Below are positions 3,983-19,634 of a DNA stretch of 30,472 nt, in pieces. Position numbers and translations under genes: made by a program. The notes below the pieces were generated by a model, which was given only the letters and a program-made list of their open reading frames with translations, was not told the origin of the DNA and did not search any database. The stretch's first letter is position 1. Each line of letters opens with the position of its first letter. This DNA comes from a virus: positions 1-30,472 of IMG/VR virus record IMGVR_UViG_3300050821_001459. One strand, written 5' to 3'.

Positions 3983-4468
3983 ATGGCTACAACTAGTGCC
4001 CCCGTTAGTGGTAAGGCCTACGGCGCCTTTATCGGAACAGCTCTTCTTGGCGTAGTCACGTTTATTCTGACTACGTATGTTCCCTACTTCCACCATGTAC
4101 TTCCTCCCACTCTCGCGCAACTGCTTCCGGTACTCTGCGGAGCTATAGGTGCATTCGCAGGGGCCTGGTTCGTCAAGCACCAAGTCACCCCAGCAGAACT
4201 CGAAGTGGCCGTTACAAACCTGGAAAAGATGTACGCTGCGGTTCATCCTCTGACTGAGGTCAAGGGCGAGCTAGTAAGCTTTACACCTCAGCAGCCAGGC
4301 CACTATAAGTTGGAGTTCTCTCGCGGTGGTGGCGTAGGTGGCGCTACAGGTAGTCCTAGCCGTGTATCAACTCAGTACCCGTACGCTGACGATCCAATTC
4401 CGCCTGAGCTCACCCCGAATCCGATCACCACTTCTGGCGGTGCTACTCCTCCGGATTCAGGCCAGTGA
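3983..4468 (+). CDS. Two-helix membrane protein, holin candidate
   Basis: 161 residues starting at ATG 3983 (MATTSAPVSGK) with AAGGA eight bases upstream; the frame is open further left but that part overlaps the protease gene and is shadow sequence. Two hydrophobic helices lie at about 10-33 (AFIGTALLGVVTFILTTYVP) and 43-63 (LLPVLCGAIGAFAGAWF), separated by a short turn with FHH. A soluble C-terminus follows that is Gly/Pro/Thr-rich and ends in low-complexity sequence. This topology fits a phage holin or holin-like protein. It is not next to the main endolysin, so the role is inferred. Its TGA overlaps the next GTG. Confidence 0.55.
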   Translation: MATTSAPVSGKAYGAFIGTALLGVVTFILTTYVPYFHHVLPPTLAQLLPVLCGAIGAFAGAWFVKHQVTPAELEVAVTNLEKMYAAVHPLTEVKGELVSFTPQQPGHYKLEFSRGGGVGGATGSPSRVSTQYPYADDPIPPELTPNPITTSGGATPPDSGQ

Positions 4469-5679
4469 GCGACGCGTACGTCGAAGACCTCCTCGCCCGT
4501 AAGGTTACGCACGAGGTACACACTTCTGTTCGGAGATCCTTTCGCGGCTGTCGTAGACGCTGGAACTGGATTTTCCAAGACAACCTCTACCCACCCACTA
4601 CTGCTAAACCTCTCGAATTTGGTGTTGCGTTTCACGTCGCCATGGAGGTACTTTTCTGTCCCACGACGTGGAGATTTAATCACATGGTCCTTGGCGCTCT
4701 TGCCGAAAAGGCATTCGTAGAGACCTGTGAGAAGCAGCGCCAGGAGTACCTCGCAAACAAAGACCTCTACGTGCTTGAGGACGATGAGCAACACGACTAC
4801 GACGAACGGATAGCTCTCGGCCGAGGAATGATCAGGTACTTCGTCGAGAAGCAGCTCCCAGCAATTCAGAGAGAATTCGTACCTACTCACGTGGAGGTTA
4901 GCTTCGATGTACCGCTCTACGGAGACGACGGTAAGATCCTACTATGCAAGTGTAAGTCGTGTCGCGTGGCTTTTGCTAAAGCAGGTGGGGGCCGATGGAA
5001 AGGCAACCCGGTTGTTTTTTCTGGGCGTGTCGATCTCATTGTTCACGATATGGCAGGCTACTACTGGGTCTGGGATTGGAAGTCCGCAGCAAGTCTAGTT
5101 TCCGATATTGAGATGTACCTAGAACTAGACGATCAAGTCGTTGGCTACGTATATGCACTCCGAAGAGGACTAGGTCTTAACATACGAGGATTCATCTATC
5201 ACGAACAGCGTAAGGCATTTCCAGAGCCTCCAGAACAGAACAAGTTCGTACGCCTGGGTCGCAAGTACAGCATAAGCAAGCAGCAAGCAACTGACTACGA
5301 CACCTACAGCGAATACGTTGCTGAGCATGATAAAGAAGCATTCGAAGTAGGATTGTACGACGAGTTCCTAGACTTCCTTAGGAACGAAGGAATCATTTTC
5401 TATCGCAGATTCAAAATCTACAAGTCCGACTTCGAGCTAGAACAGTACGAGAAGAACCTAGTCGCTGAAACCCTAGACATGATTGACCCAAACGTTAGGA
5501 TCTACCCAACACCGGGTCGCTTCTCTTGTGGCGGATGCGCCTACAAGGAACCCTGTCTCAGTATGAATGCAGGACAGGACTATGAGTATACGCTCCAGAC
5601 TATGTTCGTACAACAGGAACCCTACTACAGACGTAACTTGCCACTCAGCACCGAAAGAGGATCCTTGAGTGCAGATTAA
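4465..5679 (+). CDS. Cas4/RecB-like PD-(D/E)XK nuclease with Cys cluster
   Basis: 404 residues, GTG start in a GTGA overlap. The N-terminus has SFRGCRRRWNW (Cys29), the hallmark first Cys of Cas4/AddB-type iron-sulphur nucleases, then FGVAFHVAME (His57, Glu61). The active site is GRVDLIV (Asp190) and WDWKSA (Asp204-x-Lys206). Cys355, Cys358 and Cys364 near the C-terminus complete a four-Cys Fe-S set with Cys29. An extra Cys triplet (161, 163, 166) in the middle may form a small zinc knuckle. Such enzymes resect double-strand ends for recombination and replication, and the Sak4-like ATPase and ssDNA-binding protein downstream fit that role. Confidence 0.85.
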   Translation: MSDAYVEDLLARKVTHEVHTSVRRSFRGCRRRWNWIFQDNLYPPTTAKPLEFGVAFHVAMEVLFCPTTWRFNHMVLGALAEKAFVETCEKQRQEYLANKDLYVLEDDEQHDYDERIALGRGMIRYFVEKQLPAIQREFVPTHVEVSFDVPLYGDDGKILLCKCKSCRVAFAKAGGGRWKGNPVVFSGRVDLIVHDMAGYYWVWDWKSAASLVSDIEMYLELDDQVVGYVYALRRGLGLNIRGFIYHEQRKAFPEPPEQNKFVRLGRKYSISKQQATDYDTYSEYVAEHDKEAFEVGLYDEFLDFLRNEGIIFYRRFKIYKSDFELEQYEKNLVAETLDMIDPNVRIYPTPGRFSCGGCAYKEPCLSMNAGQDYEYTLQTMFVQQEPYYRRNLPLSTERGSLSAD

Positions 5680-6841: not shown

Positions 6842-7110
6842 GTATCCTAGACACAAACCTCGCTGTCATTCTCGATATCGCCACGGCTCGCCGTCTCGGT
6901 CTCACTGACGAGCAAATGTTCGCACAAGTCGCACGAGAAATTCGACACATTCCAGGAGTCAGACAAGTCTACGAGTATCAACTCAACAGTTCAGAAGTAG
7001 CCGTAGAAGATCTAAGACACGACACGAAGAGAATGCAGAAACTGTCTAGCGAAAACCTAGAAGATGATTACGAAGGTGAACACCGGTTCAGAGGAGACAT
7101 CTGCACGTGA
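6838..7110 (+). CDS. Hypothetical protein
   Basis: 90 residues, GTG start and TGA stop both within four-base overlaps with its neighbours. The N-terminal half is helical (ILDIATARRLGLTDEQMFAQ), followed by a strand-like GVRQVYEYQLNSSEVAV and a charged C-terminus. No motif is seen. Its position just before the Sak4-like ATPase suggests a recombination or replication accessory, but this is context only. Confidence 0.6.
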   Translation: MSILDTNLAVILDIATARRLGLTDEQMFAQVAREIRHIPGVRQVYEYQLNSSEVAVEDLRHDTKRMQKLSSENLEDDYEGEHRFRGDICT

Positions 7111-7925
7111 CAGCTGATGTAGTACTAAGTCCAAAAACATTCGCAGGAATACCGTACGCTCCAGTACACGAAACAAGAGCGCACATCAATGTACTAATCT
7201 ACGGCAAGCCAGGTGTAGGAAAGACTCAGCTAGCTGCTACCTCAGACCACGTACCCGCGATGCGTCCCGTTCTCTACCTCAACGTCGAGGGTGGAGATAT
7301 GACGCTGAGGCATGTCGCTCCGGAGATTAGAAAGATCCCCGAAGAGGGTAGCCTATCGTGGGGCCAGCTCGAAGCGGTCTACGACCAGCTAGCTAGGCAG
7401 TGCATCAACGGAGTCGAGCCAGGCGAGTTCGCTCCTCGCACGGTTATTCTGGACACTGTAACTGAGTGCCAGAAGATGAACATGAATCAAATTATGGCAG
7501 AGCTTCTGATGGCGGAACCAGAGAAGCACTGGGATCCCGACATTCCAGACGTTCGGCGGTGGGGTAAGAATATCGAACAGATTAGGAAGTGGGTGAGGAA
7601 GTACAGGGACCTGCCCCTCAACGTGATCATGACAGCGCATGAAGTCGAAGACAAAGACAACATGACTGGCCTGGTCTCTCACAAGCCTCAGCTGTCTGGC
7701 AAGCTCAGCAACGAGGTTGCAGGATTTTTCGACGTCGTTACCTACCTCTACGTGAAGGCAGAGATGGTAGACGGAGAGAGTAAGCCAGTTCGAAAACTAC
7801 TCACAGGCTCCCTCGAAGGCTACGTCGCAAAGGACCGCTCAGGAAACCTGCCTCTGGTACTCGAAAACCCGACTATGGCGGAAGTATACCGCTACATAAC
7901 CGAAGGGATAAACAAGAATGACTGA
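7107..7925 (+). CDS. Sak4-like RecA-fold ATPase
   Basis: 272 residues. Walker A is GKPGVGKT at 33-40 and Walker B is VILDT at 113-117. A sensor-like strand VIMTAHEVED follows, and TYLYVKAE with a conserved RKLLTG region lies near the end. Length and motif order match phage Sak4/AAA_24 single-strand annealing or recombinase-mediator ATPases, which act on ssDNA with a cognate SSB. The next gene, overlapping by eight bases, encodes such a ssDNA-binding candidate, and a Cas4-type nuclease is upstream, so the three look like a recombination module. A strict RecA is less likely because of the short length. Confidence 0.8.
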   Translation: MTADVVLSPKTFAGIPYAPVHETRAHINVLIYGKPGVGKTQLAATSDHVPAMRPVLYLNVEGGDMTLRHVAPEIRKIPEEGSLSWGQLEAVYDQLARQCINGVEPGEFAPRTVILDTVTECQKMNMNQIMAELLMAEPEKHWDPDIPDVRRWGKNIEQIRKWVRKYRDLPLNVIMTAHEVEDKDNMTGLVSHKPQLSGKLSNEVAGFFDVVTYLYVKAEMVDGESKPVRKLLTGSLEGYVAKDRSGNLPLVLENPTMAEVYRYITEGINKND

Positions 7926-8531: not shown

Positions 8532-10739
8532 ATGCAGACGGAGACTAGCGACCGCAAGGTAATACCCGCAGGAGTCTTCTTCAAGACTATATTCGGGTCA
8601 GCGAGAGGATACGTCTGCATTGCGATTAAGAAGAGGGAATTCAGAGAGGTCTTTTTTACCTACCCAGATCAGCTACAGGAGATGCACGACTATGTGGAAC
8701 GTACAAAATACTCCGGGAACGTATACTTTTGCCCCCAACTACTTGCCGAGCCACGCAGGGTTAAGGCTAATGTTACTGCAACGACATGCGCATGGGCAGA
8801 CCTGGACACTTGTCATCCTCGAGTACTACTGGTACGACCCACTGTCGCGCTCGAGACGAGCCCTAACCGCTATCAGGCGTTTTGGGTCTTCGAGGATAGC
8901 CAGGACCCTACCGACTCGGAGGACTTGGCTCGTCGCATTGCATACAAACACGCGGACGACGGAGCCGACAGAAGCGGTTGGGATCTCACACAGCTGCTCC
9001 GCGTGCCCGGAACACGGAACTTCAAGTATGGTGAGGGTGCATCTGCCCCTGAGGTAACAGTCGTAGAGCACAACGAAGTCCGTTATCGCCTGAGCGATTT
9101 CCACGAGTACCCTGTAGCTGAGGGGTACGAGTATACAGCAATACCTTTTCCGCAGCTAACAATCGAAGACGGCATCACAATCCTAGAGCGTTACAGCTTC
9201 AGACTCAGTGGCGCAGCACATACGTTGTTCCACCAAGTAGCAGACGAAGGAGACAGAAGTCAACAACTGTTCAGACTAGAAATGACATGTGCCGAAGCTG
9301 GCATGTCACCCGAAGACACGTTCCAGGTAGCCAGAGATGCAGCATGTAACAAGTGGCAAGACCAGCCAGGCCTACTCTGGCGTGACGTTTGTAGAGCCTT
9401 CGCAGTACATAAGCAGAACGAAGAAGCTGGCCGAATAACGGAACAAGATGGGCCAGAGCTAGTTACCGATCAGGAAAGACAAGACATCGAAGGCAATCCC
9501 TGCTTCATAGAAAGGTACATAGCATGGGCATCTACGCTGGGCGATGCTGCAGTACAATACCATCAAGCGGGTGCCTTTATTGCCCTTTCGGCGCTGCTCG
9601 CTGGGTCTATAGTACTCCCGACGTCATTCGGCCCTATAATTCCCAATCTGTGGTTGATGGTCTTGGCCAATACAACATTGAGCCGCAAGTCAACAGCAAT
9701 GAACATAGTGATGGGTCTGATTGAGGAAATAGACGAATCTCTACTTATGGCTACAGACGGAAGCATAGAAGGGTTCGCGAGTGCACTTGCGTCCAGGCCA
9801 GACAAGGTATCCATATTCTTCCGCGACGAATTTACAGGACTCTTGGAGTCAATGACCAAGAAGGACTACATGGCTGGTATGCCAGAGTTCTTCACCAACT
9901 TGTACGATGGAAGGAGTCAACTACGACGCCTACGCAAGGAAGAGATTAAGATCAAGAACCCACGCTTGATCATCTTCGCAGGTGGCATCAAGGATCGGAT
10001 GCAGAGCCTAGTCACCTTCGAACACGTAACCTCAGGGTTCCTACCTAGGTTTATCTTCGTCACAGCAGACACTGACCCAATGAAGGTTAGGCCACTAGGA
10101 CCACCTACAGAAGAGAACTGGGGAGCGCGAGACGTAATCAGGAACGAGCTTAGCGACCTATACGAACGATATCGATCGCAAGTACCCGTTGTCCTGAACG
10201 GCAAAGTCGTAGGAGTTACAGACAAGCACATCGAAGCCGCGATGTCGAAGGATGCCTGGAAGCGGTTCAACCGTATCGACCAGACACTCATGCAGGTAGG
10301 AATGGACAGTGGCGATCTTAAGAACGTACTTACACCACTGTATGCACGTCTTGGTTTTAGCATGCTAAAGGCAGCAGTATTGATTGCAGCGTCTAGGACG
10401 CAAGAAAGCACAGTCACTGTAGAAGAAGAGGATATAGTTAGAGCAGCCTACTACGGCCAATCATGGAGACGCTACGCTCACGATGTCGTGTCCAACATTG
10501 GCAAGGGTCCCATGGAGCATAAGATTGAACTAGTAGGCAACGCCATTCACAAGCGCGGGCGTGTTGCTAGGTCCGCTCTCATGCAACGGTACCATCTGCA
10601 GTCGCAGGAGATGACACTTATAGTTCGGACCCTAGAGGAACGAGGTCTGATCAATACTACGGTACACGGCAAGCAGCAAGTGTACCAGAGTATGCTTACC
10701 GAGGCAGAAACGACGCTGAAGGGAATACGTGTCAAGTGA
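8532..10739 (+). CDS. Primase-helicase (RepB-like AEP primase + SF3/DUF3987-like helicase)
   Basis: 735 residues from ATG 8532 behind GGAAGGAG. The N-terminal domain has WADLDT (Asp90, Asp92), PNRYQAFW and LRVPGTRNFKY, which are the metal-binding and substrate motifs of archaeo-eukaryotic-type primases of the RepB/D5 sort. The C-terminal half is a helicase with Walker A-like ANTTLSRKST (379-388), where the usual Gly before Lys is Arg. Walker B is SIFFRDE (427-433), and sensor-like strands (RLIIFAGG, RFIFVTAD) follow. The last 80 residues look like a winged helix. It should unwind and prime at the phage fork, working with the PolA-type polymerase at 17235. Confidence 0.85.
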   Translation: MQTETSDRKVIPAGVFFKTIFGSARGYVCIAIKKREFREVFFTYPDQLQEMHDYVERTKYSGNVYFCPQLLAEPRRVKANVTATTCAWADLDTCHPRVLLVRPTVALETSPNRYQAFWVFEDSQDPTDSEDLARRIAYKHADDGADRSGWDLTQLLRVPGTRNFKYGEGASAPEVTVVEHNEVRYRLSDFHEYPVAEGYEYTAIPFPQLTIEDGITILERYSFRLSGAAHTLFHQVADEGDRSQQLFRLEMTCAEAGMSPEDTFQVARDAACNKWQDQPGLLWRDVCRAFAVHKQNEEAGRITEQDGPELVTDQERQDIEGNPCFIERYIAWASTLGDAAVQYHQAGAFIALSALLAGSIVLPTSFGPIIPNLWLMVLANTTLSRKSTAMNIVMGLIEEIDESLLMATDGSIEGFASALASRPDKVSIFFRDEFTGLLESMTKKDYMAGMPEFFTNLYDGRSQLRRLRKEEIKIKNPRLIIFAGGIKDRMQSLVTFEHVTSGFLPRFIFVTADTDPMKVRPLGPPTEENWGARDVIRNELSDLYERYRSQVPVVLNGKVVGVTDKHIEAAMSKDAWKRFNRIDQTLMQVGMDSGDLKNVLTPLYARLGFSMLKAAVLIAASRTQESTVTVEEEDIVRAAYYGQSWRRYAHDVVSNIGKGPMEHKIELVGNAIHKRGRVARSALMQRYHLQSQEMTLIVRTLEERGLINTTVHGKQQVYQSMLTEAETTLKGIRVK

Positions 10740-11563
10740 TGGCAACACCTACTACCTACTCAGACCAGTCGAAGTATATGTCCGAATCTGAGTTCGCGAC
10801 TCACCTAGCACAGAGGAGGCTAGAGTTGCGACAGGAACACGAGTCAGACGGCGTCGCAATCGTCAGTGGCGGCCTAGACAGCATCACAACTGTCTACTAC
10901 CTTGTCAAGCATCTCGGTCTCCATCCTCATATGGTCTCGTTCGATTACGGTCAGCGTCACAAGACAGAATTGAATTACGCCCTGTGGAATGCCGAGCAAC
11001 TGGGGCTGCGGTGGAGCCTGATCGATCTGTCAAGCATCACCGAGCTGATCGGTAACTCAGCTCTCACGCACGGCGCAGATGTCCCAGAGGGACACTACGC
11101 AGAAGACAACATGGCCATCACCGTCGTTCCCAACCGGAACATGATGATGATCAGTATCGCAACTGCAATCGCAGTCAACTACAAGTACACGTACGTAGCT
11201 GCTGGTATGCATGCAGGCGATCGTGCACAGTACCCAGACTGTCGCTCAGAGTTCATGGCTTCGATCTGGCAGACCCTTATGCTAGGCAACGAAGGCTTCA
11301 TCTCACGCGACTTCGATCTGCTCATTCCGTTCCAGGACAAGAGCAAGAACGACATAGCCCGCTGGGCCTACGAACTACAAGTTCCAGTCCATATGACCTA
11401 CTCATGCTACAAGGGCGGCGACATCCATTGTGGCAGATGCGCCACTTGCGTAGAAAGGCTTGAGGCGATTAACTCCGTAGGAGAGCCTGACTGGGACCAG
11501 ACACGATATATGGACAGAGTATACTGGCGTACGGTCGTAGACGACTGGAATGCCACCCACTAG
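10736..11563 (+). CDS. queC: 7-cyano-7-deazaguanine (preQ0) synthase QueC
   Basis: 275 residues; GTG 10736 overlaps the stop of the primase, and ATG 10739 is equally possible. The PP-loop SGGLDS at 44-49 binds ATP. Conserved blocks SFDYGQRHKTEL and VPNRN follow. Zinc is held by Cys224, Cys232, Cys235 and Cys238 (CGRCATC). The family turns 7-carboxy-7-deazaguanine (from QueE) into preQ0 using ATP and ammonia. It opens the seven-gene-plus deazaguanine island and is in one frame-coupled run with DpdA. The N-terminal 35 residues are an extra lead relative to typical QueC. The call is firm. Confidence 0.95.
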   Translation: MMATPTTYSDQSKYMSESEFATHLAQRRLELRQEHESDGVAIVSGGLDSITTVYYLVKHLGLHPHMVSFDYGQRHKTELNYALWNAEQLGLRWSLIDLSSITELIGNSALTHGADVPEGHYAEDNMAITVVPNRNMMMISIATAIAVNYKYTYVAAGMHAGDRAQYPDCRSEFMASIWQTLMLGNEGFISRDFDLLIPFQDKSKNDIARWAYELQVPVHMTYSCYKGGDIHCGRCATCVERLEAINSVGEPDWDQTRYMDRVYWRTVVDDWNATH

Positions 11564-11580
11564 AACTACAAGGCGGATAC

Positions 11581-12465
11581 ATGGCGGAAATTTTTCGTAC
11601 GGGCTACGTTGGCGGAGCGGTGCCCGAAGCAATAGACTGGATGGTCGAACAGTCAGAGGGCGCCAAGACCATCTGTGTTCCGTTCGCTGGCATCGGCCGC
11701 TCGATTGTAGCTATGGCACGGCCCGACACGACCATCGAGTCGTTCGATACTCAGCACTACACGAAGTGCATCTTCGAGGGCGTCTTCAGAGCCAAGGAAG
11801 CAGAGACCAACGTCGACGGTATTCACTACCGTAAGGGTTGGGCGTTCGAGAACAGGCCATACAAGAACCTGGACGATCGCTGTGCGGGCTTTATGGACTG
11901 GGTTGCTCAAGAGGGAACGCTTTACGACAAGGCGTGTCTTGGATCAGCCATAACCAGAAGTACGCTCATGGCTCGTATGATGCACTGGAAGTCGAACGTA
12001 GAGCAGTTCTACAACAGGTTCCAGAAGCAATTCGAGTACAACAAGGACTGGCTTAATCAACCAGGTAAGTTCGTCCACCACGAAGACAACTTCTTCAACT
12101 GGAGCGTCGCTACCGATCTTATAACCGAAACCGGAGTAGGATTTTCATACGACTTCATCGAGATCGACCCTCCCAAGGTAGTCAACTACAGTGACACCTA
12201 CTCGCTCAGATTCGAAGGCTTCAACCAAATCCTAACACAAGGCGTAGCAGCAAAACTCCCCAAGTGGAACAGACGTAACGCCATGGGGTACATGAGAAAG
12301 GCCCTAGAGACTCCAGCACCTAAGGTTGTCTTCATGTACGTGAGCGGTGTCTTTCCTCCGTACGAAGACGTCAAGAAGATGCTAGCAACTACAGGTACGA
12401 TCGAAGAGGAACGTGAGTTCTTCCACCAAGGCAGGACCGACTACGGACTAGTGATAGCAAGATGA
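11581..12465 (+). CDS. Divergent DNA methyltransferase-like protein (paralog B)
   Basis: 294 residues from ATG 11581. Motif I is VPFAGIGR (33-40), an acidic residue follows the next strand (ESFDTQ, Asp56), and motif IV is EIDPPK (194-199). It shares AGFxDWV, DKACLG, GKF/GKW...NFF, RRN and EDVKK blocks with the protein at 5784-6665, so the two are paralogs. The missing aromatic in DPPK sets both apart from normal DPPY/NPPY enzymes. It sits between QueC and the DUF6884-like protein, so a role in tailoring or guarding the modified DNA is plausible. Ordinary adenine methylation against restriction is the alternative. Confidence 0.6.
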   Translation: MAEIFRTGYVGGAVPEAIDWMVEQSEGAKTICVPFAGIGRSIVAMARPDTTIESFDTQHYTKCIFEGVFRAKEAETNVDGIHYRKGWAFENRPYKNLDDRCAGFMDWVAQEGTLYDKACLGSAITRSTLMARMMHWKSNVEQFYNRFQKQFEYNKDWLNQPGKFVHHEDNFFNWSVATDLITETGVGFSYDFIEIDPPKVVNYSDTYSLRFEGFNQILTQGVAAKLPKWNRRNAMGYMRKALETPAPKVVFMYVSGVFPPYEDVKKMLATTGTIEEEREFFHQGRTDYGLVIAR

Positions 12466-13022
12466 CTTACACACTGGCGATCATTCCCTGTACTGGTGTG
12501 AAGGACCCCTACATGGAAGAGGGTCCAGCACAAGAAATTTGGGTCGGAGCACACTTCCAGTACACGCTCATTTACGTAGAGACGTTCTTCGACAAGGTAC
12601 TGGTTATGTCGTACAAGTACGGACTGATCAGTCCTACCGACACTATTCAGTCCTACGACATCGACATGCGCGTAGCCAAGCCGCGTGAACACATCAGATG
12701 GTGGTACTTGCTCAAGGCACAAATTGACAAACTTGCAGACGAGGATCCGCCAGCACTAGTTGGACTCTTCACTGGCAACTTCGAGAGAGACCGTGTAGTT
12801 AGAGAATTTGTCAAGCACGGAGTAGACCAGCTTATCGTTCCCTGGGAAGGCAAAGGTATAGGCTTGCGCCAGCAGGCAGTCTTTGATGCCGAGCCTCCGT
12901 TCGATCCAGAGAAGGTAAAAAGAGGCGAGTACAAGGTCGAGTTGAACCCTACAGGATCAGCAACAGCTAACCGCTACCTACCGCCGCCAACGAAGATCGA
13001 GGAGCCAATCGAGTGGGAGTAA
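12462..13022 (+). CDS. DUF6884/YaaA-like protein in the deazaguanine island
   Basis: 186 residues, ATGA overlap with the methyltransferase-like gene. The N-terminal strand LAIIPCTGVKDPY carries Pro-Cys, Lys14 and Pro-Tyr. Next come a helix, the strand VLVMSYKYGLISP (47-58) and SYDIDM. This Rossmann-like pattern (PC...K, then S-x-K/Y-Y-G-L-x-x-P, then YD) is that of DUF6884/YaaA-type proteins. The Pro-Cys-x3-Lys-x-Pro-Tyr start also resembles the PC-x3-KPY motif of archaeosine synthase, with one inserted residue. The C-terminus is disordered and ends in KIEEPIEWE. Membership of the operon suggests a step in base insertion or tailoring; the reaction is unknown. Confidence 0.55.
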   Translation: MTYTLAIIPCTGVKDPYMEEGPAQEIWVGAHFQYTLIYVETFFDKVLVMSYKYGLISPTDTIQSYDIDMRVAKPREHIRWWYLLKAQIDKLADEDPPALVGLFTGNFERDRVVREFVKHGVDQLIVPWEGKGIGLRQQAVFDAEPPFDPEKVKRGEYKVELNPTGSATANRYLPPPTKIEEPIEWE

Positions 13023-13235
13023 GAGTTCCCGTGATACCAGGGAGTCTCAAGCCAACAGTTACACCTACAAAGGCACCTAGGATACCGTCCAATCACGACT
13101 CACTACACAACTTCAGTATCTTCAAGTACTGCTGGTGTATGTGCCCTAAGTGCTGGTTTCCAGTGCCAGTCTCCAGCGTAGGAATACTGGGAAGCTGCAT
13201 CTGCAGAGAGTGCCCATGTAGGAGCCAATCGAATG
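13000..13235 (+). repeat. Near-perfect 16-base direct repeat of a ribosome site and start codon
   Basis: AGGAGCCAATCGAGTG at 13000-13015 and AGGAGCCAATCGAATG at 13220-13235 differ at one base and lie 220 bases apart. Each comprises the Shine-Dalgarno and start codon of the gene that follows (13013 and 13233). The repeat frames the small cysteine-rich ORF, which could have entered by a short-homology duplication or insertion. Confidence 0.75.
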
Positions 13236-13249
13236 ACGTACAGTATTAG
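13013..13249 (+). CDS. Small cysteine-rich (zinc-ribbon-like) protein
   Basis: 78 residues from GTG 13013, eight bases after AGGAG. The N-terminal third is basic and Pro-rich. The second half holds eight cysteines in two clusters, CWCMCPKC (40-47) and CICRECPC (62-69), about 15 residues apart, matching a zinc ribbon or a double metal site. It overlaps the genes on both sides and fills the gap before QueD. It may bind nucleic acid or a partner enzyme of the pathway. No family is recognised, and its ribosome site duplicates that of queD. Confidence 0.55.
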   Translation: MGVRVPVIPGSLKPTVTPTKAPRIPSNHDSLHNFSIFKYCWCMCPKCWFPVPVSSVGILGSCICRECPCRSQSNDVQY

Positions 13250-13640
13250 CAAGGAATTCTCGTTCTCGGCAGCGCACCGCCTATCAGGACTATATCCAGG
13301 TCACCCGTGCGGGCGAGTACACGGACACAACTACACTGTCAAAGTCGCACTCACAGGACCTCTCAGTGAAGTAGGGTTCGTTCGAGACTATGGCCTGCTA
13401 AGTCCACTTAAGGCATATCTCGATGAGGAACTAGACCACCGCTGGCTCGGAAAGGGTATTCTCTTCGACCCCCAGCAAGGAACTCTACCCGACCAGATTC
13501 AGCCAGTGTTCGACTGGAACCCGACAGCTGAAAACATGGCAGAGCACCTCTACCGCTGGTGCAAGGGAATGTGGCCAGAAGTAGCTGGCGTAGGTGTTAG
13601 CGAGACGCCCAAAACCTGGGCCTGGTACGAAGGATTCTAG
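13233..13640 (+). CDS. queD: 6-carboxy-5,6,7,8-tetrahydropterin synthase QueD
   Basis: 135 residues, with AGGAG eight bases before ATG 13233. The T-fold signatures are intact: SAAHRL (His15), Cys26 as nucleophile, HGHNY (His30, His32) completing the zinc triad, ELDHRWL (Asp68, His69), and VSETPKTWA with Glu124 anchoring the pterin. The enzyme converts 7,8-dihydroneopterin triphosphate from FolE into 6-carboxytetrahydropterin, the QueE substrate. Normal length for the family, with no missing key residue. Situated between two small Cys-rich ORFs in the deazaguanine run. Confidence 0.95.
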   Translation: MTYSISKEFSFSAAHRLSGLYPGHPCGRVHGHNYTVKVALTGPLSEVGFVRDYGLLSPLKAYLDEELDHRWLGKGILFDPQQGTLPDQIQPVFDWNPTAENMAEHLYRWCKGMWPEVAGVGVSETPKTWAWYEGF

Positions 13641-13757
13641 ATGGAAGACGTAACGTTCGGATGCACGTGTGAAAAGGGTAACGACGCTTCACATGTTACC
13701 TCTACAGTCGAGGACTGTGTCGTACACGGAACAAGGTTCGGAGGCCCAGTATGTTGA
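13641..13757 (+). CDS. Tiny Cys/His-rich protein
   Basis: A 38-residue ORF starts at ATG 13641 directly after the queD stop, with AAGGA six bases upstream inside queD, and overlaps queE by seven bases. It reads FGCTCEKG (Cys8, Cys10), a His at 18, then EDCVVHG (Cys26, His29) and a final Cys38. The spacing suggests a small metal-binding knuckle. The ribosome site and tight fit between two enzymes support it; the size keeps confidence moderate. Confidence 0.45.
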   Translation: MEDVTFGCTCEKGNDASHVTSTVEDCVVHGTRFGGPVC

Positions 13758-14485
13758 GGCTAGTAGAACACTACGTCAGCATGCAAGGCGAGTGCGATCG
13801 CACCGGCACTCCGACGCAGTTCATACGCTTCGCAGGATGCAATCTCAAGTGCACTGGCTGGCCATGCGACACACCGTTCGCTATCTTCCCTAGGCAGTAC
13901 CTGAAGAAGCAGTATCTACTTCCCGTTCACAATCCAGGCAGTGCCTCCCTCATGGGAGACATTATAGACAAGTATGACGAGACAGGTGCAGGGAACATCT
14001 GCCTTACTGGAGGCGAACCGCTACTCCAGCTCAACGATGACCTCGACGACCTAATCACGAACGCTCTACATCTACAAAGCAGAATTAAGTCCATCGAGAT
14101 GTTCAGCAACGGAACGCTTAGATACACGCACACCATGTTGGAGAAGTGCTCAATCCGAATGGACTGGAAGCTGCCAGGGTCGCACGAAGACCAGTCTGGT
14201 CCAAACTGGGACGTTCGTATCGAGAACTACTGCAACATGGGTGAGTGGAACCATCACACGATCAAGTTCACTATCAAGGACCAGTTCGATTTCGAAACAG
14301 CCATGTCTATATTCGACAAGTACGGCCTAGAGACATGGCCAGGCACGGTCTACGCAGGGCCAGTCTGGGACTCCGAGTACACCGCAGCAGATATTAGTGC
14401 AGGTATCCTAGCCAACAAGCTACCCTGGCGCCTCAACGTTCAGACGCATAACTATATCTGGCCAGCCCAGGAGCGTGAGCGGTGA
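13751..14485 (+). CDS. queE: 7-carboxy-7-deazaguanine synthase QueE (radical SAM)
   Basis: 244 residues from ATG 13751. The N-terminal VEHYVSMQGE, FIRFAGCNLKC and WPCDTPFA blocks are those of QueE. The Fe-S cysteines are 30, 34 and 39, a CX3CX4C spacing in place of the usual CX3CX2C because of an inserted Gly-Trp-Pro. TGGEPLLQ (86-93) is the AdoMet-binding GGE motif. It rearranges 6-carboxytetrahydropterin into 7-carboxy-7-deazaguanine for QueC. Its end overlaps folE by four bases. Function is well supported; the cluster spacing is a lineage variation or a real oddity. Confidence 0.92.
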   Translation: MLRLVEHYVSMQGECDRTGTPTQFIRFAGCNLKCTGWPCDTPFAIFPRQYLKKQYLLPVHNPGSASLMGDIIDKYDETGAGNICLTGGEPLLQLNDDLDDLITNALHLQSRIKSIEMFSNGTLRYTHTMLEKCSIRMDWKLPGSHEDQSGPNWDVRIENYCNMGEWNHHTIKFTIKDQFDFETAMSIFDKYGLETWPGTVYAGPVWDSEYTAADISAGILANKLPWRLNVQTHNYIWPAQERER

Positions 14486-15066
14486 AGCCGATGAGTGATC
14501 AGTCCATAGCTATCCTTCTCGAGCAAGTAAGCAACGAGAAGCTAGCGGAAGAACTCCTTGTCCGATGCGCGGGCCTCGATCCGACAAATCCACAGGAAGC
14601 GAGAACTGCGCAGAGATACGTTCATGCACTAGTAGAGTTGACAACGCCAGAGCCGTTCGAGTTCACGACGTTCAAGGCAGAGTCGGACGAGATGGTCACT
14701 ATGTACAACATTCCGTTCAGCTCGCTGTGTCGCCATCATATTCTGCCTTTTACTGGTGTGGCGCACGTAGCCTACGTACCAAAGTTGGAATGGGCTGGCG
14801 CCTCTAAGCTAGCCCGAACAGTACAGTGGTACTCCAGGTTCCTGCAAACACAAGAGGAACTGACGAAGGGAATAGCCGACAAGATCTACACCAATCTCGA
14901 CCCGGCGGGCGTAGGCGTCATTCTAGAAGCAGAGCACTTCTGTATGACACTTCGAGGCGCACGAACGCATGGCACTAGAATGCGCACCGCATATATGTGG
15001 GGCGTGTTCGCAGATCATGACAGGACAGCCAAAGCAGAATTCCTGTCGGGCATTAACGGGAGATAG
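14482..15066 (+). CDS. folE: GTP cyclohydrolase I FolE
   Basis: 194 residues; GTG 14482 sits in a GTGA overlap, with ATG 14491 as a second choice. Zinc ligands are Cys83 and a His of SLCRHH, with Cys154 in AEHFCM. ASKLARTVQWYSRF and QTQEELTKGIADKI are family blocks, and GARTHGTRMRT ends the core. It opens GTP to dihydroneopterin triphosphate, the first step of the deazaguanine route, so the phage does not depend on host folate flux for it. Length is normal for the bacterial type. Confidence 0.95.
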   Translation: MKPMSDQSIAILLEQVSNEKLAEELLVRCAGLDPTNPQEARTAQRYVHALVELTTPEPFEFTTFKAESDEMVTMYNIPFSSLCRHHILPFTGVAHVAYVPKLEWAGASKLARTVQWYSRFLQTQEELTKGIADKIYTNLDPAGVGVILEAEHFCMTLRGARTHGTRMRTAYMWGVFADHDRTAKAEFLSGINGR

Positions 15067-15436: not shown

Positions 15437-15695
15437 CGCAGCCTTCGACCAGATGTGCCAGGCTCGTCACGATACAGGCAGAACAAAGTACGGCATCTTT
15501 ACGTTCCTGGAGATGCCAACACTCGAAATGGCCCTAGAGGAGCTAGCTGACCTAGCTAACTACGCCAGGTACACATTCATCAAAGTAGTACTACTTCGTC
15601 AGAGCATTAAGCAAGTGCAAGACCAAGCCCTCGGCGCTGTCGATGGGTTCTTTACTACCCAAGACATTCTAGGTGTCAAGAAGGACATTGAATGA
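15333..15695 (+). CDS. Second MazG-like protein
   Basis: 120 residues from ATG 15333, with GGAGG ten bases upstream inside the first MazG gene, so the two overlap by about 104 bases in different frames. GTG 15430 would remove most of the overlap but has no good ribosome site. The N-terminal 30 residues are acidic and disordered. The core has KYGIFTFLEMPTLEMALEEL with ELADLANYARYTF, an ExxxD-type helix pair like phage MazG-like proteins. The full metal-binding set is not evident, so activity is uncertain. It ends in an ATGA overlap with the transglycosylase gene. Confidence 0.6.
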   Translation: MTSDSETTTGSPQSESRLPEPELTSEQLELIRVADAAFDQMCQARHDTGRTKYGIFTFLEMPTLEMALEELADLANYARYTFIKVVLLRQSIKQVQDQALGAVDGFFTTQDILGVKKDIE

Positions 15696-16462
15696 AGATA
15701 GCTCTCATTACACCCGCAAGTCAACTGCACCACTGTATGAACCGCAAGTTCCAAATGCTCATTCCAGGATTCGAACACAACCTGGAATACAAGAGGTACT
15801 TCAAGGTGTTCGGAACAAACAACGGTAACTTCGTCATGCTAGACAACGGCGCCTTCGAGGGCAGCCAGCTCAACGATCGCGACCTGCTAGACATGGGGCG
15901 AGAGTACAAAGTCGACGAGCTCTGCATCCCTGACACTATGGGCGATAGCGTAGGCACGCTAGAACAGCTCGGCAGATTCGCCGCTGTGCTTAGGCATCCC
16001 TCGAGAGGTGATACTTGGAAGCCCCCAAGGCTTATGGCAATCGTTCAGGGAGAGACCGAAGATGAGCTTATAAGTTGCATCGACGCCTTCGCAGCAGACC
16101 GGTTCACGAACGTCATCGACACTATCGGAATCCCCAAACACCTGCCCGCAACTACAGGCTGGGACGATATTAGGATTCGACTAGCCAAGTGGACTCAAAC
16201 CAAGTACCCGCACAAGTGGGATCTTCACTTCCTAGGTTTCGTAGCTCCAGGCGAAACCATGGGAGCAGCTCAGCTAGGAGTCCGAAGTATGGACACGTCC
16301 GCACCGTTCGTTTGCACTGCAGACAACGTTAGCATCTCGCTGCATCGAGTCCCGCCACGGCAACGCTGGTTCGCCAACCTGGGACCAGAATACTTCCATC
16401 CCCACCTAGTGAGGCAGAACATCGACGACCTCGATCTCTGGGCAGTTAAGGAAGATGACTAG
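15692..16462 (+). CDS. dpdA: DpdA-like DNA guanine transglycosylase
   Basis: 256 residues from ATG 15692. It is a compact TGT-like barrel: VMLDNGAFEG (Asp51) and CIPDTMGD (Asp81) bind the base, AIVQG (118-120) is the TGT VQG strand, and TIGIP and LHFLGF are barrel strands. SMDTSAPF supplies Asp201, the likely nucleophile (counterpart of the TGT FDxxxPTR Asp). Phage DpdA enzymes exchange guanine in DNA for preQ0 or relatives. The short length recalls the DpdA2 type of actinophages rather than full tRNA enzymes, and no tRNA-binding zinc site is seen. With FolE, QueD, QueE and QueC upstream, dPreQ0 in DNA is predicted. Confidence 0.85.
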   Translation: MKIALITPASQLHHCMNRKFQMLIPGFEHNLEYKRYFKVFGTNNGNFVMLDNGAFEGSQLNDRDLLDMGREYKVDELCIPDTMGDSVGTLEQLGRFAAVLRHPSRGDTWKPPRLMAIVQGETEDELISCIDAFAADRFTNVIDTIGIPKHLPATTGWDDIRIRLAKWTQTKYPHKWDLHFLGFVAPGETMGAAQLGVRSMDTSAPFVCTADNVSISLHRVPPRQRWFANLGPEYFHPHLVRQNIDDLDLWAVKEDD

Positions 16463-16994: not shown

Positions 16995-17290
16995 TGGCAC
17001 TCTTCGACAAAGTCACATGTGGCATACATGGAGTGATGAAGTACCGAGCTGCCATGAAATGGTGGGAGTGCGTTGGCTTTGACGGCGAGGGCTGCTGTAT
17101 CCTTACAGACGAGGATATATATCTTCTCGTACGCGGTAGACCATTCGACCCTACGTCAGAAATTCTACCCGTTTACTACGAGCACAGCATAGACGGCGAA
17201 CTTAGTCGAATTCTCGTGAAGGGTACAGCTGACAGTGACATCGTCAGAAACGCTTGGGGTGGTACGGAAGCACCCCCAAGCGAAGTGTGA
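16994..17290 (+). CDS. Hypothetical protein
   Basis: 98 residues from ATG 16994 in a one-base TGATG overlap. The N-terminus (ALFDKVTCGIHGVMKYRAAM) has Cys and His pairs, with WECVGFDGEGCC next, suggesting a small metal-binding alpha/beta unit. The remainder is strand-rich (DIYLLVRGRPFD, EILPVYYEH). It overlaps the polymerase start by about 56 bases. No family recognised. Confidence 0.5.
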   Translation: MALFDKVTCGIHGVMKYRAAMKWWECVGFDGEGCCILTDEDIYLLVRGRPFDPTSEILPVYYEHSIDGELSRILVKGTADSDIVRNAWGGTEAPPSEV

Positions 17291-19634
17291 AGAATGTCCT
17301 TTGTACGAAGATGGTCAGTTCGTTCCCAGTAACGGACCAGCAAAGGCCAAGCTCGCCATCGTAGGCGAAGCACCTGGTGTGAATGAAGCCAAATACGGTA
17401 GGCCGTTCGTTGGCGAGTCTGGCCAACTGCTTAATTCGGTCCTTAAGCACTACGACATCAGCAGAAAAGAGGTATTCCTTACCAATGCAGCCCTTTGCAG
17501 AGATTCCAGCGGCGCCACCCCAACAGCTAGTGCACTCCAAGCGTGTAGGCCCCGTCTCATGGGCGAGCTCCGAGAAAGGGAGCCACAAGATATTGTCGCT
17601 CTCGGTAACTCTGCCGCGCAGTCGATACTTGGCACTAAGACTGGAATCACCTCGCTCCGTGTGGGTCAGGGGCATACCAATGAGGACGAGCTACCTAACG
17701 TGCGTGTTCTACCGACCTTCCACCCCGCCGCCTGTCTTCGGCAACCAGACTTCTTCCCGTCTCTAGTCACTGACTTCGGCAAGCTCAAAGGCTTCACTGG
17801 TATCTGGTACGAGCCTAAGTGGAAAGCATACGAGGCCCCAGAAGAGGCACTGGCCGCACTAGCTGAGCTGCAACAGATACAGGGGCCTGTTGTAGTTGAC
17901 ATCGAGTCAGGCATTGAGAAGGACGTGTCTTTCGAACATCCTAACCGACATACCCTTCTCTGTGTCGGACTCGGCTACCAGCGTGGCAAGATAGTTGTCA
18001 TAGGCGAAACAGCACTGAGAGACGAACGAGTCATTGAAGCACTTGCACTGTACCTAACAACGCACCCAATGAAGGGACAGAACCTCAAGTTCGACAACAA
18101 GGGCCTCTGGGCTAAGCTCCACGTTGCCCTGACGGTCTACGCAGACACCATGCTCAAGTCCTATTGTCGAGACGAGCGTCAGAGAGTTCACAGCCTTGGA
18201 TACCTAGGCATAGAAATGCTAGGTACTCCAGACTGGAAACACGCACTCGACAAGTACAAGAAGCCCAAGGACAGCTACGCAGTTATTCCTCGACCAATAC
18301 TGTACCAGTACAACGCATGGGACGTGCACGTCACAGACCTAGTTGACGAAGTCCTAACCAAAGAACTCGAGACCCATCCAGAACTAGTCAAGCTTCACGA
18401 GTTCCTTTGCCGCGCATCTGACCAGCTAATGTTCCCGGAGCTCAACGGCATAGGTGTCGACCTGAAGTACAACGAAGAACTCATGATCCAATACCAAGCC
18501 AGTCTAGCTATCCTAGAAGAACGAATAGCACAAGCCATACCGGACCCCGAATGGACAAACTTTAATCCGCGCTCGTGGCAGCAAGTTCAGAAGGTAGTCA
18601 AGGGCACCTTTGGCCTGAAGCTACCTATGAAGATGAACACGAAAAGAGAGTACGTTGAGACTACGGACGTCACTGCACTCACGGCGCTATTGGAAAGAAA
18701 CCTTGGCGAACCTTCTGAAGAGTTCTTCAGGCGCATGCTGGAGCATCGAAAGGAAGCCAAGCTCTACGGAACTTACGTCAAGGGACTACGAAAGCGAGTA
18801 TACCGAGGCCGAGTCTATCCTACTTTCCTACTCCATGGTACCACGACGGGACGGCTCAGTTGTCGTAACCCTAACCTTCAAAACATCCCCCGAGATAGCA
18901 CAATGCGTAAGCAGTTTGTACCAAGCAAACCGGAAAACGTGTTCCTTGAGGGTGACTACGGCCAGAACGAAGGACGAGTTCTCTGCTGGCTAGCACAGGA
19001 CGAATACCTACGAGGCCTGTTCAACGATCCAACGCGTGACATCTTCGATGAGCTAACCCCAGTCCTGTACGGCGATTGTTCAGGACTAAGTCCAGCCGAA
19101 ATGAAGGAGCTGAGAATTCGTGTCAAGGCCTACTTTTACGGACTTGCTTACGGACGAGAAGCGCGAAGCATTGCGCTCGAGTATGGTATCCCTATGTCAG
19201 AAGCTGAGCGAGGCATGCGAGAGTTTTTCAAGGTCATTCCAGCAACTGTCGCTTTTCGTGAGCGTACTCGGCGACAAGTTCTCGAAGGAAACGACCTCAT
19301 CACAGCCTTCGGACGGCACAGAAGATTCTACCTAATTACCAACAGCAACAGAAAGGACGTACTCAATGAGGCTCTTGCATTCCTGCCTCAGTCAACTGCC
19401 AGTGATATCTGTCTTGATGCATTCGTGCATACTCGTCCACGCCTTAAAGGCATTGGGTTCATCAGGAACATCGTCCACGACTCGCTCCTAGCCGAGACGC
19501 ATCCAGATAACCTCATGGAGGTAATGACAATTATGAACGAGGAAATGCTCGCAGCAGCTGCGCGAGTCGTAGGCGACTACGTCAGATTCAAAGTCGACTT
19601 CAAGTCCGGCCCAAGCTGGGGAGAGCTGTCGTAG
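17235..19634 (+). CDS. Uracil-DNA glycosylase / 3'-5' exonuclease / family A DNA polymerase fusion
   Basis: 799 residues from GTG 17235; GTG 17259 is a weaker option. Residues 18-185 are a family-4 UDG: Fe-S Cys18, Cys21, Cys88 and Cys104, motif GEAPGVNEAKYGRPFVG and HPAACLR. Residues 218-370 are a DEDDy exonuclease: DIES (Asp222, Glu224), KFDN (Asp287), YNAWD (Tyr359, Asp363). The polymerase follows: GDYGQNEGR (Asp574), Lys631 with Tyr635 in KAYFYGLAYG, and VHDS (Asp749). Tyr stands where E. coli Pol I has Phe762, and the second motif C acid is Ser. It is the phage replicase. A similar UDG-polymerase fusion is known in phage SPO1. Confidence 0.92.
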   Translation: MTSSETLGVVRKHPQAKCEECPLYEDGQFVPSNGPAKAKLAIVGEAPGVNEAKYGRPFVGESGQLLNSVLKHYDISRKEVFLTNAALCRDSSGATPTASALQACRPRLMGELREREPQDIVALGNSAAQSILGTKTGITSLRVGQGHTNEDELPNVRVLPTFHPAACLRQPDFFPSLVTDFGKLKGFTGIWYEPKWKAYEAPEEALAALAELQQIQGPVVVDIESGIEKDVSFEHPNRHTLLCVGLGYQRGKIVVIGETALRDERVIEALALYLTTHPMKGQNLKFDNKGLWAKLHVALTVYADTMLKSYCRDERQRVHSLGYLGIEMLGTPDWKHALDKYKKPKDSYAVIPRPILYQYNAWDVHVTDLVDEVLTKELETHPELVKLHEFLCRASDQLMFPELNGIGVDLKYNEELMIQYQASLAILEERIAQAIPDPEWTNFNPRSWQQVQKVVKGTFGLKLPMKMNTKREYVETTDVTALTALLERNLGEPSEEFFRRMLEHRKEAKLYGTYVKGLRKRVYRGRVYPTFLLHGTTTGRLSCRNPNLQNIPRDSTMRKQFVPSKPENVFLEGDYGQNEGRVLCWLAQDEYLRGLFNDPTRDIFDELTPVLYGDCSGLSPAEMKELRIRVKAYFYGLAYGREARSIALEYGIPMSEAERGMREFFKVIPATVAFRERTRRQVLEGNDLITAFGRHRRFYLITNSNRKDVLNEALAFLPQSTASDICLDAFVHTRPRLKGIGFIRNIVHDSLLAETHPDNLMEVMTIMNEEMLAAAARVVGDYVRFKVDFKSGPSWGELS

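Follow-up and report, generated by a model that had tools for sequence, protein, structure and literature searches.

What does a protein resembling a methyltransferase do among phage genes for 7-deazaguanine synthesis, when the aromatic residue expected in its catalytic motif IV has been replaced by a basic one? This question is raised by two proteins encoded in a viral DNA stretch of 30,472 nucleotides (the window), both on the + strand: P0001 (11581..12465, 294 aa, with DPPK at motif IV) and P0002 (5784..6665, 293 aa, with DPPR). An earlier note, made on the sequence by itself, had regarded the two as paralogs and had suggested that they could methylate adenine, act on a 7-deazaguanine base, or be catalytically altered. 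Here, we describe the relatives, predicted fold, and genomic surroundings of these proteins, and weigh what P0001 may do.

Two Paralogs and Their Conserved Motifs

P0001 and P0002 are 32% identical across 284 aligned residues (E 7e-46), a likeness that therefore does not arise from chance; on this comparison the two are judged to be true paralogs, in agreement with the earlier note. Motif I of P0001 is PFAGIGR (residues 34-40), with D56 at the place of motif II, and its motif IV is D196-P197-P198-K199; the corresponding motifs of P0002 are PFSGFGR and DPPR. The loss of the aromatic residue after DPP that had been pointed out is thus seen in both proteins.

Relatives of P0001 and P0002 were found in 12 IMG/VR contigs, of which 10 came from a search with the two-row alignment and two more from a search for DUF6884, a domain discussed below. 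The F-x-G-x-G form of motif I, which had been noted for both window proteins, is present in each of them and does not hold as a strict rule in the family, because L009 and L016 have PFAGSCK and L017 has PFAASGK; what stays constant across this motif in the 12-row alignment is PF plus the R or K that closes the loop. DPP is invariant in all 12 rows and D56 nearly so, and the full set of invariant residues comprises D98, A102, D106, W136, D196-P-P, D205, Y207, N215, and W229. Lysine follows DPP in every P0001-side relative (11 contigs with nine distinct sequences, down to 31% identity in L017), and DPPK is kept in L016 and L017 despite identities of 31-40%. The P0002 branch, a supported clade of P0002 and its sole ortholog in L010, has DPPR in the former and DPPS in the latter. 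A basic residue at this position is therefore a constant feature of the DUF6884-linked group, whereas the P0002 branch does not maintain it.

The dN/dS ratio is about 0.09-0.10 for the L002/L003 pair and 0.05 for L006/L007, and the P0001-like gene is therefore under purifying selection. An invariant DPP, a near-invariant D56, and a dN/dS of about 0.1 may be taken as signs of a working active site. At positions 108-959 of L006, an in-frame TAA interrupts the P0001 homolog, whereas the next gene, for DUF6884, is intact; this stop codon would be a sequencing error or recent decay.

Searches of Pfam, PHROGs, NCBIfam, and PADLOC gave no match above threshold for P0001 or P0002, and 50,697 phage records contained no match to either protein. 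When cultured phages and plasmids were searched by tblastn, with divergent relatives as additional queries and E values up to 10, only chance matches were obtained; a match in Mycobacterium phage Fruitloop was dropped because it runs antisense to an annotated gene. No P0001/P0002-type protein was found in the cellular genomes that were scanned. The search against Dam/D12 proteins that the earlier note had proposed placed neither protein in that family: PF02086 (MethyltransfD12) matched neither at E 1 nor at E 10, at which controls did match, and hhalign against ten Dam/D12 proteins returned a probability of 3% with the wrong regions aligned. DAM-like-phage1 (PF22555) matched only L009 (residues 8-65, E 0.019, 14.7 bits, below the cutoff of 27). 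The libraries searched contain no description of the P0001/P0002 family, whose fold is one already known.

Predicted Fold and Comparison with Dam

AlphaFold2, supplied with the twelve-row alignment, predicts a class I methyltransferase fold for P0001, complete and with its full strand order (pLDDT 83.3, pTM 0.84), and this confident prediction supports the methyltransferase-like character proposed for the protein. In the model, beta1 (30-33) leads into motif I and is followed by beta2 (51-55), beta3 (163-167), beta4 (192-195) with DPPK directly after it, beta5 (248-254), and a beta6/beta7 hairpin (273-293). Between beta2 and beta3, at the place of the target-recognition domain of Dam, lies an insert (about 87-157) that is mostly helical. 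This order of motifs is that of alpha-class enzymes such as Dam.

Among solved structures, Foldseek found Escherichia coli Dam to be the best match to P0001 (E 5.6e-5), with a TM-score of only 0.4-0.5 and an rmsd of about 10 Å. Among viral models, the best match was M1I2V4 (BFVD; TM 0.69/0.63), a protein without a name, and the next two were giant-virus proteins named as adenine- and cytosine-N4-specific DNA methyltransferases. M1I2V4 is much nearer to P0001 in fold than is any solved structure.

P0001 and the Dam/MethyltransfD12 (PF02086) proteins exhibit considerable similarities, including the class I fold, motif order, insert, FxGxG, and DPP, but there are also clear differences. Dam/MethyltransfD12 has no detectable sequence homology to P0001 or P0002, the TM-score is low, and motif IV is DPPY in 10/10 aligned Dam proteins versus DPPK, DPPR, or DPPS in 12/12 rows here. 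The model would thus give P0001 a Dam-like plan, without D12 membership by the tests made.

A basic residue after DPP is also found in alignments to PDB entries, as DPPK in YccW/RlmI (3c0k) and as DPPR in 8vyd, a UPF0020 methyltransferase. The latter shares with the P0001 profile a local pattern, DPP[KR]...YS..F, around motif IV (E 0.0021); the match to these two proteins spans only about 50 residues and carries no sign of a common function, and 8vyd is regarded only as a lead. The basic residue is therefore abnormal for D12 but not among other methyltransferases, and by itself it is no proof of lost activity.

Deazaguanine Gene Neighborhood

The placement of these proteins in a run of DNA-metabolism and deazaguanine genes is confirmed by the genes around P0001, all of which lie on the + strand. 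QueC, the preQ0 synthase (10736..11563; TIGR00364 E 4.7e-49, above cutoff), is directly upstream, and P0001 starts 17 bases past it. The stop of P0001 overlaps, as ATGA, the start of a gene for a DpdC/YaaA-type DUF6884 protein (12462..13022; PF21818 E 3.8e-14, 53.4 bits vs. a cutoff of 30), so that the P0001-DUF6884 pair sits between QueC and a QueD-like protein of the 6-carboxytetrahydropterin synthase family (13233..13640; PF01242 E 1.4e-27; TIGR03367 below cutoff). These are followed by a QueE-like radical SAM protein (13751..14485; phrog_2076 E 2e-26; TIGR03963 E 2.8e-28, below cutoff), FolE, which is GTP cyclohydrolase I (14482..15066; PF01227 E 9e-47), and a TGT-superfamily-like DpdA candidate (15692..16462). 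The DpdA label is weakly suggested by a conserved place and by the TGT matches of relatives, three of 26 of which match PF01702 (best E 0.00098); the window protein itself does not match PF01702, and a search of the PDB with the profile of the candidate found no TGT. Further along, at 17235-19634, a single ORF combines an N-terminal uracil-DNA-glycosylase superfamily domain (PF03167 E 8.6e-28) with DNA polymerase A (PF00476 E 8e-58).

A preQ0 pathway and the base dPreQ0 have been reported for Mycobacterium phage Rosebush (PMC6884629). Pathways of this type resemble that of the window in having FolE, QueD, QueE, and QueC plus a DpdA, but they differ in that the window has the P0001-DUF6884 pair inserted between QueC and QueD. 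Cultured phage Youna2 likewise has QueC, QueD, QueE, FolE, and a DpdA-like gene but lacks the pair, in agreement with the 49 contigs lacking it that are described below.

A DUF6884 domain has been reported for dpdC (PMC11888242), and DpdC hydrolyzes dPreQ0 to dADG (PMC12839542). The PADLOC model for DpdC matches 12462-13022 at E 0.001, and this protein is a distant and short DpdC relative; its family suggests that it hydrates dPreQ0 to dADG. The gene that is paired, and in one case fused, with P0001 is related to bacterial DpdC (Dpd system; DUF6884/DUF328). To our knowledge, no methyltransferase partner has been described for DpdC or for the bacterial dpd islands. In Streptomyces phage Ponzi, a stretch distantly resembling DUF6884 occurs in surroundings where no deazaguanine genes are annotated.

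P0002 is located between a PD-(D/E)XK nuclease (4465-5679; PF12705 E 1.6e-18) and an AAA_24 ATPase (7107-7925; E 1.8e-23). The nuclease and ATPase genes are adjacent in relatives without P0002, and P0002 therefore looks inserted there. In L010, its ortholog comes after PolA, and because these places differ, P0002 is without conserved neighbors. It is a second, separately placed copy, and the proposed connection with 7-deazaguanine is not supported for it; for P0001, this connection is supported by co-inheritance with, and one fusion to, a DpdC-type DUF6884 protein.

Co-inheritance of P0001 and DUF6884

A scan with an alignment of the DpdA-like protein yielded 80 contigs, which have in common the layout primase-helicase, QueC, QueD, QueE, FolE, DpdA-like protein, and PolA. 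Across all scans, QueC and QueD are both visible in 55 contigs; six of these contain a P0001-like gene together with a DUF6884 gene, 49 lack both, and no contig has just one of the two. The naive chance of this 6/49/0 split is 3e-8, a value not to be taken at face value, since the six positives, among which L004/L005 and L002/L003 are near-duplicate pairs, amount to about four lineages and the count, drawn entirely from metagenomic contigs, includes some brought in by the P0001 or DUF6884 queries themselves. Trees were therefore built. The pair, treated as a label, needs six changes on the PolA and primase-helicase trees, in which some of the unlabelled rows are truncated contigs, and five on a PolA tree restricted to contigs that show the slot or contain the gene. 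In the primase-helicase tree, the window, L009, L016, L017, L005, and L002/L003 each sit with QueC-QueD contigs that have no pair. These repeated changes indicate that the pair comes and goes as a unit, and it has been gained or lost together at least five to six times.

All 11 DUF6884 contigs with upstream sequence visible have a P0001 homolog directly upstream or fused. In L009, QueC has been relocated and the pair is still together. In L016, a single ORF of 424 aa holds both proteins, with DUF6884 at residues 272-404 (E 6.9e-21) and a methyltransferase part that stops before the last hairpin; L016 could be a chimera. As to co-occurrence with DpdA, the check that had been proposed, the 49 contigs without P0001 indicate that the DpdA-like gene does not need it; P0001 instead follows DUF6884. 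This pairing of a methyltransferase-fold protein with a DpdC-type gene appears to be new.

Other genes occupy the same slot elsewhere. In the six sister contigs L042, L043 (6556-7574), L056, L072, L080, and L085, the QueC-QueD interval encodes a protein of the DJ-1/PfpI family (PF01965, E 1.6e-16 in L043) together with a small unknown protein, and L056 is the tree neighbor of L017, which has P0001-DUF6884. The DJ-1/PfpI gene in this slot may be an alternative tailoring module.

Possible Functions of P0001

Paralogy, predicted fold, co-inheritance, gene overlap, fusion, and purifying selection are the direct observations on P0001, and the protein probably helps to make a further-decorated DNA base. 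The reading that we favor, at somewhat less than even weight, is that P0001 and DUF6884 form a two-protein tailoring module in which P0001 is SAM-dependent and acts on the same deazaguanine base. Judging from their families, FolE, QueD, QueE, and QueC would make preQ0, the DpdA-like protein would exchange guanine in phage DNA for preQ0, and the DUF6884 protein would hydrate the nitrile to the amide, giving dADG. P0001, with its Dam-like, alpha-class layout, would then methylate the 7-deazaguanine, most likely at the new amide or at the exocyclic amine. We infer SAM use, methyl transfer, the target atom, and a role for Lys199; SAM-dependent methylation is favored because even deeply diverged members retain DPP and the motif II acid. 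On the other side, no known methyltransferase family was matched above cutoff, and the replacement of a motif I glycine in L009, L016, and L017, along with the L016 fusion lacking the last hairpin, argues against SAM use. We know of no methylated dADG. A bolder form of the same idea, possible but doubtful, is that P0001 founds a new family of DNA methyltransferases that methylate 7-deazaguanine already in DNA (for example, at the dADG amide), with the Lys that replaces the motif IV aromatic holding the base and its side group, and with the pair being swapped through the QueC-QueD slot.

The tight pairing with DUF6884, including one fusion, might suggest that P0001 does not methylate at all and instead acts as a subunit that binds DNA, flips bases, or reads sequence and in this way offers dPreQ0 (or guanine) to DUF6884. 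The consistent substitution of Lys for the motif IV aromatic and the missing C-terminal hairpin of the fused L016 copy fit such a role, and the motif I glycines lost in L009, L016, and L017 are a real argument for a base-flipping partner. However, a scaffold would not need a DPP that is invariant, and a motif II acid that is nearly so, at about 30% identity, and bacterial DpdC has not, as far as we know, been described with a partner of this kind; we consider this explanation rather unlikely.

The position of E. coli Dam as the best solved fold match, the adenine- and cytosine-N4-specific DNA methyltransferases named among the top viral models, the Dam-like motif order and insert, and the weak N-terminal match of L009 to DAM-like-phage1, below cutoff, would lead one to think of an ordinary m6A or m4C DNA amino-methyltransferase, divergent and of the alpha class, that adds a second layer of restriction protection beside deazaguanine. 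This is unlikely in view of the failure of D12 to match even at E 10, the very low hhalign probability, and the missing DPPY aromatic; moreover, nothing would tie the occurrence of a general methylase so exactly to that of DUF6884. Adenine methylation, as initially suggested, thus retains the fold match to Dam but not the sequence support of D12/Dam. Finally, P0001 may use the fold for a different reaction on the modified base, for instance by transferring some group other than methyl taken from a SAM derivative. Consistent with this, every P0001-side sequence keeps a basic residue both at the close of motif I and in motif IV, and CmoX, a phage cytosine C5-carboxymethyltransferase (PMC12783734), provides a precedent for methyltransferase-type phage enzymes that can transfer such groups. 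However, the window contains no recognized gene for an unusual SAM derivative, and such chemistry seems very unlikely here.

Concluding Remarks

The 7-deazaguanine bases of phage DNA form a growing set, and knowledge of the enzymes responsible for their decoration is incomplete. A methyltransferase-fold protein that is inherited together with a DpdC-type enzyme, and in one case is fused to it, is a candidate maker of a newly decorated base. The genes between QueC and QueD differ among contigs, and this interval may therefore harbor other tailoring enzymes as well. If the bolder reading of P0001 as a methyltransferase of 7-deazaguanine in DNA were true, phages would alter their DNA base by swapping a pair of genes at this slot.
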